Source of the DNA: an uncultured Rickettsiales bacterium | GTDB taxonomy: Bacteria; Pseudomonadota; Alphaproteobacteria; Rickettsiales; Rickettsiaceae | Reading direction: 5' to 3' | Assembly (NCBI GenBank): GCA_903952265.1 | Contig: CAJBEU010000002.1 | Coordinates: 124,001 to 188,000, forward strand | DNA length: 64,000 nt | In this document: positions 7,226 to 59,753 of the stretch, piece by piece | Position numbering within the stretch: the first letter of the stretch is position 1 | Layout: the number at the start of each line of letters is the position of its first letter | Notes under the pieces: model-generated | What the model saw: only the letters and a program-made list of their open reading frames with translations | What the model was told of the DNA's origin: nothing | Database searches by the model: none | Translations under genes and position numbers: made by a program

Positions 7226-8422
7226 ATGTTCAAATATCTAAAATCTATGGTTGAGAAAAGAATTCGCCATCAGAATTTTCCTAAAGCTCCAATGTTTGAA
7301 TGGAGCTCTTCAAGTTGCGCTTATATTGCAGATGCCAAAGAATATTCAAAAAATCCTATAGTTTACAGGTGTGTCAAGCTTATAGCAGAGTCTGCAAGCC
7401 ACATCCCTTTACTGGTTTTTAAAAAAAATAGACATACAAAGGTTCGAGATAACACCCATATTTGTAACACTCTTTTTCGTAGGCCTAATCCTCAACAAGG
7501 AGGCACTGAATTCTTTTCTTCAGCTATCACAAATAAATTACTTTTTGGAGAGTGCTATTTGATGTTAGCAAAAGCAGATATGTTTGGTACGGCTCCTCAA
7601 TTGGAAATGTACTTATTAGAAAATTCTCGCTTGTCTTTGATAATTGAAAATAACGTTTTACATTCGTATTCTTACGATAGTCCAAGGGGCAAGATACTGT
7701 ACTCGGTAGACCAATTGTCTAGGCAAAGCAAAATTCTTCAATTAAAAAATTACAATCCCTTTAACCAGTCAAGGGGTATGTCTTGTCTTAATCCAGCTAG
7801 TAATTCTATAGCTCTAAATAGAATGGCATCAGAATGGAATTATTCTCTTTTAAAAAATGGAGCAAGGCCCAGCGGTGCAATCATACTTAAGGACGGCAAT
7901 AGGTATTTGAGCTCAGAGCAATTTGAAAGACTAAAAGAAGAGATTCAAGAAAAATACAGCAGTTCTGTAAATGCTGGCAGGCCCATGTTACTTGAAGGAG
8001 GTCTTGACTGGAAAGAGATGAGTATGTCTCCCAAAGACATGGATTTTTCTGAATCTAAAGATTCTTCTTCAAGGGAGATTGCGTTGGCATGCGGAGTGCC
8101 TCCTCAGCTTCTTGGAATCAAGGGAGATAATACCTACAGCAATATGCAAGAGGCAAGGCTTGCTTTATGGGAGGAAACTATAATTCCACTATTAGACAAA
8201 ATAGCTGATTCTCTAAGTAATTGGCTTTCTTATTGGCTAAAAGAAGATTTGATTATCGAGTTTAATAGAGATGAAATCTCTGCACTAACAGAAAGAAGGG
8301 AAAATCTGTGGTCCAAAATCTCAAACGTAGATTTTATGACAGTGAATGAAAAACGAGAGTTTATGGGTTTGCCTCCGCTTGCTGGAGGAGATAGGTTGTC
8401 AATTTTAGAAACTGAGCAATGA
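7226..8422 (+). CDS. HK97-family phage portal protein (GTA-type)
   Basis: 398 residues, the usual length for GTA portal (gp3) proteins. Recognisable portal features include the N-terminal NPIVYRCVKLIAESASHIPL segment, the FGECYLM strand, the region RMASEWNYSLLKNGARPSG and the GVPPQLLGIKGDNTYSNMQE stretch typical of HK97 portals. The protein forms the dodecameric ring through which DNA enters the capsid. Its start is supported by a GAGG Shine-Dalgarno five bases upstream. It is followed with a 4-base overlap by a small gene and then the large terminase, an order opposite to the terminase-then-portal order of the Rhodobacter GTA. No protease or capsid gene follows. Confidence 0.92.
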   Translation: MFKYLKSMVEKRIRHQNFPKAPMFEWSSSSCAYIADAKEYSKNPIVYRCVKLIAESASHIPLLVFKKNRHTKVRDNTHICNTLFRRPNPQQGGTEFFSSAITNKLLFGECYLMLAKADMFGTAPQLEMYLLENSRLSLIIENNVLHSYSYDSPRGKILYSVDQLSRQSKILQLKNYNPFNQSRGMSCLNPASNSIALNRMASEWNYSLLKNGARPSGAIILKDGNRYLSSEQFERLKEEIQEKYSSSVNAGRPMLLEGGLDWKEMSMSPKDMDFSESKDSSSREIALACGVPPQLLGIKGDNTYSNMQEARLALWEETIIPLLDKIADSLSNWLSYWLKEDLIIEFNRDEISALTERRENLWSKISNVDFMTVNEKREFMGLPPLAGGDRLSILETEQ

Positions 8423-8694
8423 ATAACTTAGCAATTGATCAGCTCTATTCCTGTGCCGCAAAGATTATAAAAAGTCTGGACACTGACTTATCTCAGCAAG
8501 AAATGAGCGCTGCTTGTAGAAAAGATGCAGTTGCAATGCTTCACAAATTGGCGAATTTATTGCTACAGATTAGTAAGTTAAGAGAAATTGGTCAGGAGCA
8601 TTCCGAGAGTGTTGGAGAGGAAGATCACGTTATTATTCAAGAATTTTTGAGCAAATATCAACATCCTCTTATTAGTCGTCGTGGAAAACAATAA
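8419..8694 (+). CDS. Small helical protein between portal and large terminase; possible small terminase
   Basis: 91 residues, ATG overlapping the portal stop by 4 bases and its own end overlapping the terminase GTG by 14 bases, so the three genes are translationally coupled. The sequence is predicted mostly helical (for example LYSCAAKIIKSLDTDL and AVAMLHKLANLLLQISKL) with no motif I recognise. Small terminase subunits are short helical DNA-binding proteins encoded beside TerL, and GTA gp1 is about this size, so TerS is the leading guess from position only. A connector or head-tail adaptor is possible. Function unproven. Confidence 0.6.
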   Translation: MNNLAIDQLYSCAAKIIKSLDTDLSQQEMSAACRKDAVAMLHKLANLLLQISKLREIGQEHSESVGEEDHVIIQEFLSKYQHPLISRRGKQ

Positions 8695-10135
8695 AGACGT
8701 ATTAAAAGCACTGCTAAGATCTGATTTGTCCGCCTTTATTCACAAAGTGTTTACAACTCTAAACCCCGGAGGCAAGTTTCTTTCAAATTGGCACATAGAT
8801 CTTATTGCGGCATATCTTTCTGAGATTGTGCGGCAAAATGGAAAAAGACTCATGATAAACATTCCTCCTCGTAGTTTAAAATCCATTTGTATAAGCGTTG
8901 CATGGCCAGCTTGGGTTTTGGGGCATGATCCAAGCAAAAGGATTATTGTTGCAAGTTATTGTGAGGCTCTGAGCGTAAAGCATTCTCTGGATTGTAGACT
9001 GATCATGACATCTGATTGGTATAAAGAGTTGTTTCCGGAAACCCTTATCAGTAAAAAACAAGATACAAAAAGAAAGTTTTTGACTTCTAAAAATGGTTTC
9101 AGATTAGCAACTTCAGTAGGAGGGTATGTAACTGGAGAAGGCGCGGATATATTAATAATTGATGACCCACACAACCCTACCTACGTTAAGTCAGATGCTA
9201 TGCGTAACCAGGCCATAAAATGGTATAGGACAACTTTTGTAACAAGACTGAATAACCCTGAAACGGGCAGCATAGTGCTTGTGATGCAAAGACTTCATAA
9301 ACAGGACTTAGCTGGTTATTTAAGCAGTCAAGATAATTGGGAAACGCTAAAGATTCCAGCTATTGCAGACAAAGATTATTTTTATAAAATCCCTAAATCT
9401 GAATTTGATCTGGCAAACAATCCTGAGATTCTTTACACAATTGATCAGAATTCTTTGTATACTTTTTCTAAAGGATCAAGCTTGCATGAATCTCAATGTA
9501 AAATGGAATATTTACAAAATATAAAACGAGAAGTTGGAGAAGACGTATTTGCTGCTCAATATCAGCAAGAACCTCAAGAAATTTCTAACGGAATTCTTCC
9601 TAAAGAGCACATATTTAGATATAAGAATCTTCCAAAAGAGTCAGATTGTATTTTGCAAAGTTGGGATACTGCAATAAAAATCAGTAAGGAAAGTGATTTT
9701 TCCGTATGTACAACTTGGGTGATTGCCGAATCAAAAGCATATCTAGTTGATGCTGTACGGGAGAAAATGGACTACCCAGATCTAAAAAATAAAATACAGG
9801 AATTATACAACAAGTTTTTGCCTCGAGTTGTACTGATCGAAGATCATGCAAGTGGCCAATCTGTTATTCAAGACCTATTGCGTAGCGGAATATGTAATAT
9901 TAAAGCAATCAGAAATCGTTTAGACAAAGTCAGCAGATTCGCTCTTACCATGGGCATGTTTCAGTCGAGAAATGTATTGTTTCCTGAGGACAATTCTTTT
10001 ATCGAGAGCAATATCGTTTCTGAGTTGTTGCAATTTCCTCATGCAAAACACGACGACGCGGTAGATTCAGTGAGTCAAGCTCTTAACTATATTAGGGAAA
10101 TGAACTTCAAGGACATTAAAATCCGTGCATTTTAA
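8681..10135 (+). CDS. Large terminase subunit (TerL, GTA/phage)
   Basis: 484 residues with GTG start at 8681, chosen because it directly precedes the conserved region and overlaps the upstream gene. The N-terminal ATPase has a deviant Walker A (NIPPRSLKS, about residues 60-68) common in this terminase family and Walker B ILIIDDPH near residue 160. The C-terminal RNase H-like nuclease shows SWDTA, VLIEDHASGQS and KHDDAVDS acidic motifs. It packages DNA into capsids using ATP. It belongs to the terminase group seen in alphaproteobacterial GTAs and related prophages. All motifs look intact, so it is not an obvious pseudogene. Confidence 0.92.
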   Translation: MENNKDVLKALLRSDLSAFIHKVFTTLNPGGKFLSNWHIDLIAAYLSEIVRQNGKRLMINIPPRSLKSICISVAWPAWVLGHDPSKRIIVASYCEALSVKHSLDCRLIMTSDWYKELFPETLISKKQDTKRKFLTSKNGFRLATSVGGYVTGEGADILIIDDPHNPTYVKSDAMRNQAIKWYRTTFVTRLNNPETGSIVLVMQRLHKQDLAGYLSSQDNWETLKIPAIADKDYFYKIPKSEFDLANNPEILYTIDQNSLYTFSKGSSLHESQCKMEYLQNIKREVGEDVFAAQYQQEPQEISNGILPKEHIFRYKNLPKESDCILQSWDTAIKISKESDFSVCTTWVIAESKAYLVDAVREKMDYPDLKNKIQELYNKFLPRVVLIEDHASGQSVIQDLLRSGICNIKAIRNRLDKVSRFALTMGMFQSRNVLFPEDNSFIESNIVSELLQFPHAKHDDAVDSVSQALNYIREMNFKDIKIRAF

Positions 10136-17070: not shown

Positions 17071-17445
17071 ATGTACTTGATCGACAGCCTTTTTGGGGCG
17101 TTGTCTCATTTTTCGGAGCAAAGTAGGGTTTTGGCATGCAACATCGCCAACGTCAATACTCCAAAATTCAAAGCAAAATCTCTCACCCCTTTGTCTGAAT
17201 CTACTTTACCTGCGCCTTCTGTCTTGTGCACTGCTGCGATGCATATTTCTTCTTCTAAAGTTTCTTCTAGAGGTGTTGCTCGTCTTGAATCGATGAAGGG
17301 TGAGGAGAAACTCAATGGCAATAATGTAGACATATTGCAGCAAATGAGTGCTATGTCAGAAAATGTAGACAAATATGAACTAACCATGGCCCTTTTTAAG
17401 GGCGCTTTTGATTTTTTTCATATAGCTCAAGGTTCTTCCAGATAG
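17071..17445 (+). CDS. flgB: Flagellar basal-body rod protein FlgB
   Basis: 124 residues from ATG 17071; an upstream in-frame TTG (17029) would add 14 unconserved residues. The N-terminal rod motif reads RVLACNIANVNTPKFKAK, the standard FlgB signature, and the C-terminal helix reads NNVDILQQMSAMSENVDKYE with the LFKGAF ending. FlgB is the proximal rod subunit next to the MS ring. It is followed by flgC (6-base gap) and fliE (4-base overlap), the classic flgBC-fliE unit. Confidence 0.9.
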   Translation: MYLIDSLFGALSHFSEQSRVLACNIANVNTPKFKAKSLTPLSESTLPAPSVLCTAAMHISSSKVSSRGVARLESMKGEEKLNGNNVDILQQMSAMSENVDKYELTMALFKGAFDFFHIAQGSSR

Positions 17446-17451
17446 ATCTTT

Positions 17452-17916
17452 ATGAGCCGTATATTAAAGTTATTCGTAATCTACGCCTTTGCCTTTTTGT
17501 TTGCAACGCGCGCGTATTGTGGTGATTCACTACTTGAGGCTTTGAAAATAGCGCAAAGCGGGGCACAGCTGCAGGCGGCTCGTATGAAAGTTGTATCTGA
17601 AAATATCGCTAACTCAGAATCTATCGCGACAAAGAAACAGCTTGCATACCGTAGACGAACAATTTTGGTGAAAAATAGAAACAGTGAGAAGGCTGTAAAA
17701 TATAAGATTCGAAAAAGTCTTGTGATGCCTTTTGTAAAGAAATACGATCCCACTCACCCTTATGCGGATAAGAACGGACATGTATATATGTCAAACGTTA
17801 ACAAGGATATAGAAAGAGCTGATGCAGCTGAGGCTCAGGTGAGTTACGAAGCAAACCTAAAAATGATCAAAGCTTTGGGAAATATGACAACTACTACAAT
17901 TGATTTATTGAAATGA
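17452..17916 (+). CDS. flgC: Flagellar basal-body rod protein FlgC with N-terminal signal-peptide-like extension
   Basis: 154 residues. The conserved part starts at about residue 25 and includes ARMKVVSENIANSES, MPFVKKYDPTHPYADKNGHV, the VNKDIERADAAEAQ segment and the closing YEANLKMIKALG...TIDLL helix of FlgC. In front of it lies a Lys/Arg start plus a hydrophobic stretch (residues 6-18) ending ATRAYC-GDS, which looks like a Sec signal peptide. Rod proteins are normally exported by the flagellar type III apparatus and start directly with the conserved helix. No later Met gives a usable start. Confidence 0.88.
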   Translation: MSRILKLFVIYAFAFLFATRAYCGDSLLEALKIAQSGAQLQAARMKVVSENIANSESIATKKQLAYRRRTILVKNRNSEKAVKYKIRKSLVMPFVKKYDPTHPYADKNGHVYMSNVNKDIERADAAEAQVSYEANLKMIKALGNMTTTTIDLLK

Positions 17917-18284
17917 CAGAATTTAGTATTATAGGACCCCTTAATAATTTTATAAGTGCAGAAATTGAGCACAAAAAGGTTTGCGAGCAGTTTAAAAAAA
18001 TTAATTCCTCTGAAAAAGATTTTGCCTCTTTTGCATCCAAATTTTTGTTTTCTGGAGAAGCTATAAAAAAAAGCGGTTTTGATATTAACAATCTCGTATC
18101 ACCTTTAAAGGATAGATTGTCTCAATTTGATCGTGTAGCCCAAGGATCTGTTGTTGGTAAGTTTTCTATGCTTGAAGTTGCAAGTGCTTTAAAAGAAGCA
18201 AAGCTGTGCCTTGAACTGATGAGTGAGGTGAGAAAGCAAGTAGTTTCTGGTTTGAATCAGATGTTAAATAGTAACTCTGGATAG
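17913..18284 (+). CDS. fliE: Flagellar hook-basal body protein FliE
   Basis: 123 residues, start overlapping the flgC stop by 4 bases. The C-terminal half matches FliE: SVVGKFSMLEVASALKEAKL and LELMSEVRKQVVSGLNQML correspond to the conserved V.ea..al..a....l...vRnKvv.aYqeim pattern. FliE links the MS ring (FliF) to the FlgB/FlgC rod. The N-terminal third is poorly conserved and a little longer than usual. No further flagellar gene follows; the next gene, murA, is convergent. Confidence 0.82.
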   Translation: MTEFSIIGPLNNFISAEIEHKKVCEQFKKINSSEKDFASFASKFLFSGEAIKKSGFDINNLVSPLKDRLSQFDRVAQGSVVGKFSMLEVASALKEAKLCLELMSEVRKQVVSGLNQMLNSNSG

Positions 18285-56584: not shown

Positions 56585-59257
56585 ATGAAACATCAATTTT
56601 TGCATAATTTTTCGGGTAAAGATCGTTTTAAGCAGCAAAAGAGTTCAAATTATCCAGACAAAGAGGAAGGAGCGTTTGCAAGAACAGAAGAAGATGATGA
56701 TGAGTTTATTCCTCTAGTGTTGGGTAATTCAAGGGTTAAAGGACGTCTAATTTGTAGTTTTGGGATTACCAGTTCTCCCAACTTTGCTACTTTTGCAATA
56801 GGAATTTGCCAGGGTCCTATTACCTCAGTTAACACGATTTACGTTAATGGAGTAAAAAAGGTTTTTGATGCAGACAGATGTATAGTGCATCTTGGTACTT
56901 CAGATCAAGAGGTGGACTCCACTTTGTACAGTTATGAAGAAGATATTCCGGCCTTTAGAGGCTTAGCCTATGTTGTTTTTCCTAAATTTGTTTTGGAGTT
57001 ACCTGAAAAACAAGGTTTAGAATCAGGTTCTGACATTCAGTCCTTATCAGAAGAAGATTTGGATGATTTTATTCCTCGATTTTCTTTTGACGTAATTTCA
57101 TTGCGTCACGAACATGAGGAAAGAGTAAGTAAAATTAGGGCTACTAACATTATTCCTGGATGCGGAGAGTTTGTATACGACACCAGAAGTTTGTATAAAT
57201 CACTTGATCAAGGTACCCAAGAATCCATAAAAACAAAAATTAATTATTCCAACGGAGAGGCAAATAGCTTAGTAAATGTGGATTTTTTGAAAAAAGAATT
57301 ACCAAAGGTAGAGTGGGTAGCTCCTGTGGTTTGTTGGTTTGGCAATAATAAAGAGATAGAAAAATGTACGATATTGCCTCGTGTTGAGCATGGTCCGGGT
57401 ATTGCTGACATTTTTGAAGTTAATGGATCAAAAGTTGAATGGAAAGTTGCTGGATATAATCGATCAACAGCTAAAATTGTAGGTTTTGATAAAGGTAAGA
57501 TGAGGTATGGAGGTACAGTAAGTGATGAGAGTGTAGTAAATTATTTAGCTATGCTAAAAGGCCGAGGTTATAAAATCATGTTTTATCCCATGATTTTTCT
57601 AGATATAGAAGGTAAGTCTTGGCGTGGAGAGATGAATGGCACGTGGGACCAGGTTGAGAAATTTTTTATCAAGCCTGGGGGTTACAATAACTTTATTTTG
57701 CATTATGCAGAACTTGTCAAAGACTATGTTGATGCTTTTGTTATAGGATCTGAACTTGAGGGCATAACGAGCATTTATAGAGAGCAAAATGGCGTAAGAG
57801 AATTTCTTGTTGCAAGAGAATTGGGCGACCTAGCTTACAAAGTTCGTGCAGTTTTCTATGAAGCAGACAAGCAACATGTCAAAATTACTTATGCGGCTAA
57901 TTGGTCCGAATACCATAGTAAAGAGGGTTGGTATCATTTAGACAAGCTTTGGATGTGTGATGCAATAGATTTTATCGGTATAGATGCATATTTTCCAGCA
58001 ACAGATACTTGCGACAGTAGCATTGATTATCATCAAATAAAGGAAGGGTATAAAAAAGGAGATACGTATGAATATTATTACGAAAACGGCGCTCGCAAGT
58101 ACTGCGATCCTAAATTTGCGCTAAAAAATATAGAATATTGGTGGAAGAATCGTCATTTAAACCCAGATGGACAAGATAGTGGATGGATTCCTGAATCCAA
58201 ACCAATTTGGCTTACTGAATTTGGCTTTTCCTCCTTGGACAAATCTACTAATGAGCCTAACGTATTTTTTGATCCTAATTCTGGGAGAAATTTACCCAAA
58301 CTTTCTTCTGGAGAGACTGATTTTGCACTGCAAGAACAAGCCATTTGTGCTTTAGTGGATCACTTTGACTCTATTTGCAGTTCAAAAGGAAGTAAAATGG
58401 TAGAGCAAATGTTTTTATGGTGCTGGGATTCCAGATATCCAGCTTGGCCAGACGAAAGCATAAAAGATTTGGATCAATTGCCGACATTTGATGAATCTGC
58501 AGTTGCAGAAGGGGGTATAGACACATGGGCTGACTCACCTAATTGGGAATCGGGGCATTGGATTAACGGTAAATTTTCTGGAATATCAATTCGCGAGGCT
58601 ATAGAAGAAATCTTTAGCAAAAGTGGATTTTCTTCAAAAGACTTTACTATTGACTCTAGATTATCTGGGTTGATTCGGGCCTTAACAATAAATTACAATT
58701 GTTCTGCTATTTCTTTGTTGGAAACTCTTAGGTTGCTTTATAAATTTGACGTTTTTTACTCACCAGAGGGAGTGTTTCATGTGATTGCAAGAGAATCTAA
58801 TTTTAACGTAGAAAAAAATACTTACGCAAACAGGCTGACTTTTGAGGATTTGAGGCATTCATCTAGCGCTCCTTCTTTTAAATTTTTGCAATTGCCAAAC
58901 GAAATAGAGCTAGGGCTTGTTTTTATTCCGGAAAATTCTTCAGAACTGGGTTTTGTAACAATTAATACAGAATCAAAGAAAAAAACAGATCTAAAGTTAC
59001 CTATAGTGATGTCCTTTGCTAAAGCCTCTAGCTCTGTGCACAAGATTTTGGAATCGATGCGGGAGAAAAATAATTTAGCTGTTATACAGATTCCATTTTA
59101 TTTTGAGGTCAAGCCTACTCAGGTGATTGAATTGAGAATTTCAAAAACTTCTATGCTGCTAAGAGTGATCTCTGTAAATTTTTACGAAAGAGAAAAAGAA
59201 TTGGTGTGTGTAAAATTACAGTCTTTAAAGTCTGAAAAATCTCTGCTTTTGTCTTAG
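56585..59257 (+). CDS. GTA TIM-barrel host-specificity/hub protein (gp15-like), compact form
   Basis: 890 residues. The central GTA TIM-barrel domain is recognisable from AMLKGRGYKIMFYPMIFLDI, DAFVIGSELEG, VKITYAANWSEYH, DFIGIDAYFP and PIWLTEFGFSS (about residues 330-600). A phage tail-3 like region follows, with IREAIEEIFSKSGFSSKDF and a receptor-binding type domain. In the Rhodobacter GTA this protein is the baseplate hub and has about 1300 residues with a Gly-rich hydrophobic start; both that start and several hundred residues of C-terminus are absent here. The frame is intact. Confidence 0.88.
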   Translation: MKHQFLHNFSGKDRFKQQKSSNYPDKEEGAFARTEEDDDEFIPLVLGNSRVKGRLICSFGITSSPNFATFAIGICQGPITSVNTIYVNGVKKVFDADRCIVHLGTSDQEVDSTLYSYEEDIPAFRGLAYVVFPKFVLELPEKQGLESGSDIQSLSEEDLDDFIPRFSFDVISLRHEHEERVSKIRATNIIPGCGEFVYDTRSLYKSLDQGTQESIKTKINYSNGEANSLVNVDFLKKELPKVEWVAPVVCWFGNNKEIEKCTILPRVEHGPGIADIFEVNGSKVEWKVAGYNRSTAKIVGFDKGKMRYGGTVSDESVVNYLAMLKGRGYKIMFYPMIFLDIEGKSWRGEMNGTWDQVEKFFIKPGGYNNFILHYAELVKDYVDAFVIGSELEGITSIYREQNGVREFLVARELGDLAYKVRAVFYEADKQHVKITYAANWSEYHSKEGWYHLDKLWMCDAIDFIGIDAYFPATDTCDSSIDYHQIKEGYKKGDTYEYYYENGARKYCDPKFALKNIEYWWKNRHLNPDGQDSGWIPESKPIWLTEFGFSSLDKSTNEPNVFFDPNSGRNLPKLSSGETDFALQEQAICALVDHFDSICSSKGSKMVEQMFLWCWDSRYPAWPDESIKDLDQLPTFDESAVAEGGIDTWADSPNWESGHWINGKFSGISIREAIEEIFSKSGFSSKDFTIDSRLSGLIRALTINYNCSAISLLETLRLLYKFDVFYSPEGVFHVIARESNFNVEKNTYANRLTFEDLRHSSSAPSFKFLQLPNEIELGLVFIPENSSELGFVTINTESKKKTDLKLPIVMSFAKASSSVHKILESMREKNNLAVIQIPFYFEVKPTQVIELRISKTSMLLRVISVNFYEREKELVCVKLQSLKSEKSLLLS

Positions 59258-59318: not shown

Positions 59319-59753
59319 ATGCTAACTTTGTTTGCTTCGCTTGTTGGTTTTATGGGATCTGTGGTGCCAGAAATCTTTAAATTAATTAGAGATAAGTCTG
59401 ATAAAGAGCATGAACTGAAAATTTTAGAAAAGCAAATTGAAAACAGTAGAATTTCTTTCTCTAATCTACAAGAAATAGAGGCTGGAACTCTTGAAAGAAA
59501 AATTATGTATAAAACATATACGACAAAAATAAAATGGGTGGACGCTCTAAATGGCAGCGTTCGTCCAATGCTTGCTTACGGATTTTTTGTATTTTATGTT
59601 TTTATGAAAATTCGCTGCTGCGCGATTGCTTCTTATATATCTTTGCTTGCTCAAATTGAAAGTCTTTGGACTGAAAATGATTATGCGATTTTTGCAGGTG
59701 TGATAAGTTTTTATTTTGGTCAAAGGACTTTTAGCAAATTGAGAAAACAATAA
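59319..59753 (+). CDS. GTA-type 3TM holin
   Basis: 144 residues. Begins with a hydrophobic helix (LTLFASLVGFMGSVVPEIFKL), continues with a charged coiled coil (about 25-65), then WVDALNGSVRPMLAYGFFVFY, the most conserved part of the holin-of-three-TMs family linked to gene transfer agents, and a last membrane segment ending ISFYFGQRTFSK. Holins open the inner membrane so that an endolysin reaches the wall. It lies 61 bases after the hub gene; the GH24 lysozyme at the window's left edge is a possible partner. Confidence 0.83.
   Translation: MLTLFASLVGFMGSVVPEIFKLIRDKSDKEHELKILEKQIENSRISFSNLQEIEAGTLERKIMYKTYTTKIKWVDALNGSVRPMLAYGFFVFYVFMKIRCCAIASYISLLAQIESLWTENDYAIFAGVISFYFGQRTFSKLRKQ

Follow-up and report, generated by a model that had tools for sequence, protein, structure and literature searches.

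Textbook accounts have rod subunits exported via the flagellar type III channel, through which, as a basic rule of assembly, the flagellum grows from the inside out. The rod itself is ordered FliE6-FlgB5-FlgC6-FlgF5-FlgG24 (accessible text of PMC12403130). In Salmonella, type III export of FlgC requires the protein's own N-terminal residues, while its Phe49 is required for assembly and not for secretion; FlgB, in turn, requires its Phe45 to be secreted by the type III route via a pocket of FlhB (PMC9307174, in its available sections). Flagellar parts known to depend on Sec are ring parts, FlgA and a membrane part of the export gate: the use of Sec is normal for the P- and L-rings, FlgA and FliP, the latter with a cleaved signal (PMC13344023 and PMC12403130, in the portions at hand), whereas the proteins described here belong to the rod. 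In crown Rickettsiales, flagellar genes have been patchily retained and lost, leaving reduced flagella (PMC10847448), and the available part of that source makes no mention of signal peptides on rod proteins. Likewise, in the full-text literature searched, which holds a minority of the subscription papers, we found no description of signal peptides on rod, hook or filament proteins.

The stretch of DNA analyzed here (the window, 64,000 nucleotides, G000:C2:124001-188000) comes from a genome of 571,808 bases in two contigs that is 96% complete. This genome belongs to the Rickettsiaceae (family f1 in our coding), a family that includes Candidatus Sarmatiella mevalonica, and not to the Midichloriaceae, whose FlgC the first-pass annotation had proposed for comparison. 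Of the window proteins that were scanned, flgB-flgC-fliE form the sole flagellar cluster recognized (Table 1). Phage portal, terminase, GTA TIM-barrel and GTA holin genes are scattered elsewhere in the window (7226-8422, 8681-10135, 56585-59257 and 59319-59753), gene-transfer-agent-like genes that are retained in a 0.57-Mb genome.

Table 1. Features of the flgB-flgC-fliE operon, in window positions
Feature	Position	Strand	Basis
flgB, proximal rod protein, without signal peptide here	17071..17445	+	ORF; N-terminus MYLIDSLFGALS
flgC, proximal rod protein with N-terminal extension	17452..17916	+	ORF, 154 aa, begins MSRILKLFVIYAFAFLFATRAYCGDSLLEALKIAQSG
predicted Sec signal peptide of FlgC, residues 1-23	17452..17520	+	score; alignment with relatives' extensions
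mature FlgC, canonical rod domain	17521..17913	+	alignments to relatives and to Salmonella FlgC
fliE, rod base protein, without signal peptide	17913..18284	+	ORF, TIGR00205, operon order

FlgC matches PF06429 (32.7 bits, cut-off 23) and PF00460 (26.3 bits, cut-off 20.7). Its best model in the equivalog scan is TIGR01395, at 97.1 bits, just below 102.1, and a relative at locus L008 scores 121.6 bits against the same model. FlgB reaches 50.4 bits against TIGR01396, under the cut-off of 59.05, with a query that began at 17074, one codon late. Because FliE scores just 18.4 bits against a cut-off of 30, its identity rests on this weak TIGR00205 match together with operon order. Residues 27-151 of FlgC align with residues 3-131 of Salmonella FlgC (chain 7bin_V, E 5.6e-10), which places the canonical FlgC start at about residue 25.

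The mature domain lines up with that of Salmonella FlgC (PDB 7bin, 7cgo and others), whose chain starts at the conserved N-terminal helix and has no signal peptide. The FlgC of the flgB-flgC-fliE operon does not start at that helix: 23 residues precede it, occupying exactly codons 1-23 and ending one or two residues ahead of the usual FlgC start. The protein begins MSRILKLFVIYAFAFLFATRAYC-GDSLLEALKIAQSG, with a basic n-region (R3, K6) followed by the hydrophobic core LFVIYAFAFLFA. Cleavage is predicted after Cys23, where A-Y-C precedes G24, and would leave a mature protein that begins about one residue ahead of the ordinary start; an alternative lies after Ala18, where L-F-A precedes T19. We scored signals as an uncharged hydrophobic 8-mer combined with small residues at -3 and -1 and set the threshold at 3.2; FlgC scores 3.55. 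None of the 38 window proteins expected to be cytosolic passed this threshold and four of the five expected exported ones besides FlgC did (BamA was missed), so the FlgC signal is more than chance. The signal-like extension that the first-pass annotation had described is therefore confirmed both as open reading frame and by score. A signal peptidase I gene is found in the same genome (G000:C1:10322-10918).

Two other classes of signal were considered and rejected. A lipobox has a small residue before its Cys, while R-A-Y-C has a Tyr there and the Cys is not conserved. A Tat signal carries twin arginines in its n-region, and that of FlgC, MSRILK, has no RR. The best reading of the 23 residues is a cleavable Sec signal peptide, as judged by their composition and placement, although the cleavage site of the window FlgC is weak and counts against it, with Cys at -1 and an Arg nearby. 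Cys at -1 is rare among signal peptidase cleavage sites. In G001, a genome of the same genus, the matching positions read A-N-A in FlgC and A-H-A in FlgF, and relatives' FlgC mostly have Ala at -1, but the score used favors Ala. Of the 48 cleavage sites predicted in FlgC, 34 fall at the canonical start or up to 4 residues upstream of it.

The poor site of the window protein, and a hydrophobic stretch that appears long enough to span a membrane, would also suit an uncleaved N-terminal anchor that tethers FlgC and FlgF to the inner membrane or to the MS ring. We regard such an anchor as very unlikely: small residues at -1 and -3 beside the mature start recur in divergent relatives, and the mature N-terminus of FlgC is the conserved helix, which packs in the rod core.

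It had been claimed that no later Met could start FlgC; this holds for ATG, the next being residue 45, and fails for alternative starts, as TTG codons occur at residues 16 and 31. An untranslated extension, with FlgC starting at an internal TTG or another codon, could draw on the TTG at residue 31 and on the 11 of 48 signal-positive FlgC that also have an ATG within -6 to +8 codons of the canonical start, in which codons alone therefore do not settle the choice of start. A start at TTG31, however, would truncate the conserved helix, and the other 37 of the 48 lack an ATG around the canonical start. Spacer DNA would moreover not be expected to hold an open, in-frame extension of one and the same architecture in dozens of genomes; local misannotation or a frameshift was rejected because the extension is open and its form is conserved among relatives. 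Pooled over close pairs, pN/pS of the extension is 0.60 for FlgC, 0.51 for FlgB and 0.65 for FlgF, compared with 0.12, 0.16 and 0.20 for the respective mature parts. Values below 1 are a sign of weak constraint on the extension, as expected of signal peptides, although the values of single pairs spread between 0.17 and about 1.0 and FlgC pairs reach 0.97, a point against. On this evidence we find an untranslated extension hardly credible.

The first-pass annotation had proposed looking for the segment in relatives, whose lack of it would have spoken against a signal, and the conservation of the segment withstands this check. FlgC was found in 30 of the 58 close relatives; across the order, 118 of 343 genomes have it. 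We obtained and classified 104 FlgC genes of the order, setting aside fragmentary matches and G247 (one of four g93 genomes), and 48 of them are signal-positive; the number becomes 49 with G329, which the classifier called "neither" and which we set signal-positive by eye for the change counts on the tree. Signals are found in all FlgC of families f1 (23/23), f10 (17/17), f17 (3/3), f29 (2/2) and f7 (1/1), in one of two from f19 and in one of five from f22, plus G329 as a second by eye; we guess that f10 is Midichloriaceae and f19 Anaplasmataceae. The 51 FlgC of 15 other Rickettsiales families have none. Across the class, 236 of 385 genomes have a FlgC match, and 12 FlgC with long apparent N-termini, taken from among the matches listed, all have a canonical start codon and no signal.

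The signal state was mapped on a FlgB+FlgC tree of 104 rows and 262 columns from which the extension was excluded, made by a quick method and weakly supported at its deep forks. It requires 2 changes on this tree, against a mean of about 35 after shuffling, and 0 of 500 shuffles were as low; the tips are kin to one another, and counts across genomes are accordingly not independent. Because the other Alphaproteobacteria examined have no signal, the simplest story is one gain within the Rickettsiales and one loss (G061). The FlgC trait seems to be ancient and widely conserved among Rickettsiaceae and their relatives.

FlgC is not the only rod protein concerned. The first-pass annotation had stated that FlgB and FliE of the operon have no such extension, and this is borne out: FlgB of the source genome is signal-negative by eye and gains no signal when read longer, from TTG 17029. 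Its account is incomplete, though, since FlgF of the same genome has a signal and FlgB has one in many relatives. FlgF (L037:9219-9989, minus strand) begins MLFYAYSKLLLCCLIWSNLAYC-SNASYISLSG, its signal ending A-Y-C at the canonical start. FlgF signals occur in 23/23 genes of f1, 4/14 of f10, 2/4 of f29, 1/3 of f19 and 0/27 of the others; three of the four f10 positives (genus g33: G162, G164, G165) are ambiguous, as the canonical ATG remains. For FlgB the counts are 13 of 16 classified in f1, 11/14 in f10, 1/2 in f29 and 0/52 in the others, omitting 13 rows that were not anchored; one FlgG row was omitted likewise. No signal was found in 56 FlgG across the order, for sites near the canonical start, or in FliE of 99 genomes, without restriction to such sites. 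By eye, in relatives that have a signal-bearing FlgC and fuller flagella, there is none on FlgE (G042, G052, G005, G027), FlgK (G042), FlgL (G042, G052), FliC (G042, G052, G005) or FlgD (G045).

Among the proteins checked, then, predicted signals of this architecture, with conserved placement, are restricted to FlgB, FlgC and FlgF. Read against the order of the rod, they lie on neighboring middle layers and never on its base or on the distal rod. The signal state changes 4 times for FlgF (63 rows) and 8 times for FlgB (93 rows, of which ten, G322 and nine of the 13 unanchored ones, were assigned by eye). The signals of FlgF and FlgB look like repeated events, in a count that reads gain and loss alike. 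In addition, the interval from flgG to the flgH-like gene (L037:6226-8326) contains three ORFs that bear signals, of which two resemble, by eye, FlgA, which is a chaperone.

FlgB, FlgC, FlgF, FlgG and FlhA are detected in the source genome, and ORFs resembling FlgH, FlgA, FliL and FliM by eye adjoin flgFG. A search of this 96% complete genome, in which fast-evolving genes can be missed, turned up no hook protein FlgE, no FlgD and no flagellin, and matches to flagellin or FlgD were likewise lacking in G001, G018, G008, G030, G007, G009, G014 and G019. The apparatus of the source genome may be a rod-ended basal body. Such reduction could suggest that FlgC and FlgF are no longer rod parts and have acquired another periplasmic function, for which the undetected FlgE, FlgD and flagellin speak. 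We consider this unlikely, as the genome keeps genes for FlhA, FlgB, FlgG and FliE along with the FlgH-like and FliM-like ORFs, and as the signal is also present in relatives with flagellin and FlgD. The same relatives (G005, G027, G042, G045, G052) led us to reject a stripped apparatus as the cause of the signal. The tie that had been suggested to an altered or non-motility apparatus does not hold up either, as the signal is carried also by relatives that possess FlhA, flagellin, FlgD and hook protein.

Loss of the rod cap FlgJ was a further candidate cause. PF10135 (FlgJ) is found in 12 of the 58 genomes, comprising 11 of 11 with a signal-less FlgC and 1 of 19 (G042) with a signal-bearing one. 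The candidate was rejected on finding that G052 has a diverged FlgJ-like ORF missed by PF10135 (L311:2797-3141), in the flgJ slot of flgI-flgJ-flgN-flgK-flgL (gene names by eye). In most genomes whose FlgC bears a signal, FlgJ either has diverged or was not detected.

A check for export genes had also been proposed, and flhA is indeed present in the source genome. It occurs in 28 of the 58 genomes, all of them among the 30 that have FlgC. The presence of this export gate gene alongside flgC would fit an extension that acts as an N-terminal hydrophobic signal for flagellar type III export, and such a signal has been described for Salmonella rod and hook subunits and worked out on FlgD (PMC8983047, in its available part). 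Hydrophobic N-terminal residues on an early rod substrate are common to both. The type III signal known, however, amounts to about four small non-polar residues, whereas the extension has a basic start, a hydrophobic core of at least 8 residues and a small-x-small site beside the mature start, in many lineages, which together make up a full signal peptide with a predicted cleavage site. The gate-using FlgG, FliE and hook proteins, moreover, do not carry it.

The FlhB-docking residue of FlgB offers a further, independent sign. Counted from the Asn motif, a Phe column of Rickettsiales FlgB lies three residues beyond the position of Salmonella Phe45, and we infer that this column is the docking residue in the order. 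Phe occupies it in 50 of 50 FlgB when the family lacks signals altogether, but in just 1 of the 25 FlgB that bear a signal; among the 8 FlgB that lack one although their family or genome has a signal-bearing FlgC, the count is 1. As the genomes are related, the Fisher value for this contrast does not stand for independent events. Within three positions of the column, Phe is found in 50/50, 10/25 and 4/8 of these groups, respectively; with 10 of 25 retaining a nearby Phe, the motif may therefore be shifted, not lost, in some. At the level of sequence, the docking-motif Phe is absent from most signal-bearing FlgB, which again differs from early type III substrates, and we judge a type III role for the extension to be distinctly improbable. 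FlgB of the source genome has neither signal nor docking Phe, and its route of exit is a difficulty for Sec export.

Sec export of rod subunits with periplasmic delivery, which the first-pass annotation had raised among other possibilities, is the best reading and is supported by the conservation of the trait. FlgC would be made as a pre-protein and would cross the inner membrane through the Sec translocon; signal peptidase I would then trim it, leaving a mature start almost exactly at the ordinary FlgC start, and periplasmic FlgC would join the growing rod on its FliE/FlgB base. FlgF would take the Sec route in the source genome and FlgB would do so in many relatives, with FliE, FlgG, hook and filament proteins staying on the flagellar type III route. 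We hold it probable, from the sequence comparisons, that FlgC is exported through Sec and assembled into the rod. With somewhat less confidence, we favor a hybrid flagellum in crown Rickettsiales, in which the middle rod (FlgC, then FlgF, and in many also FlgB) would be delivered by Sec and assembled from the periplasmic side, FliE, FlgG, hook and filament would pass through the central channel, and a single origin in FlgC would have been followed by several spreads to neighboring layers.

If true, a whole branch with Sec signals on its proximal rod layers would break the channel rule for part of the shaft, and the periplasmic assembly of rod layers would become directly testable. The trait would also separate three roles that are usually joined: secretion signal, FlhB docking and assembly.
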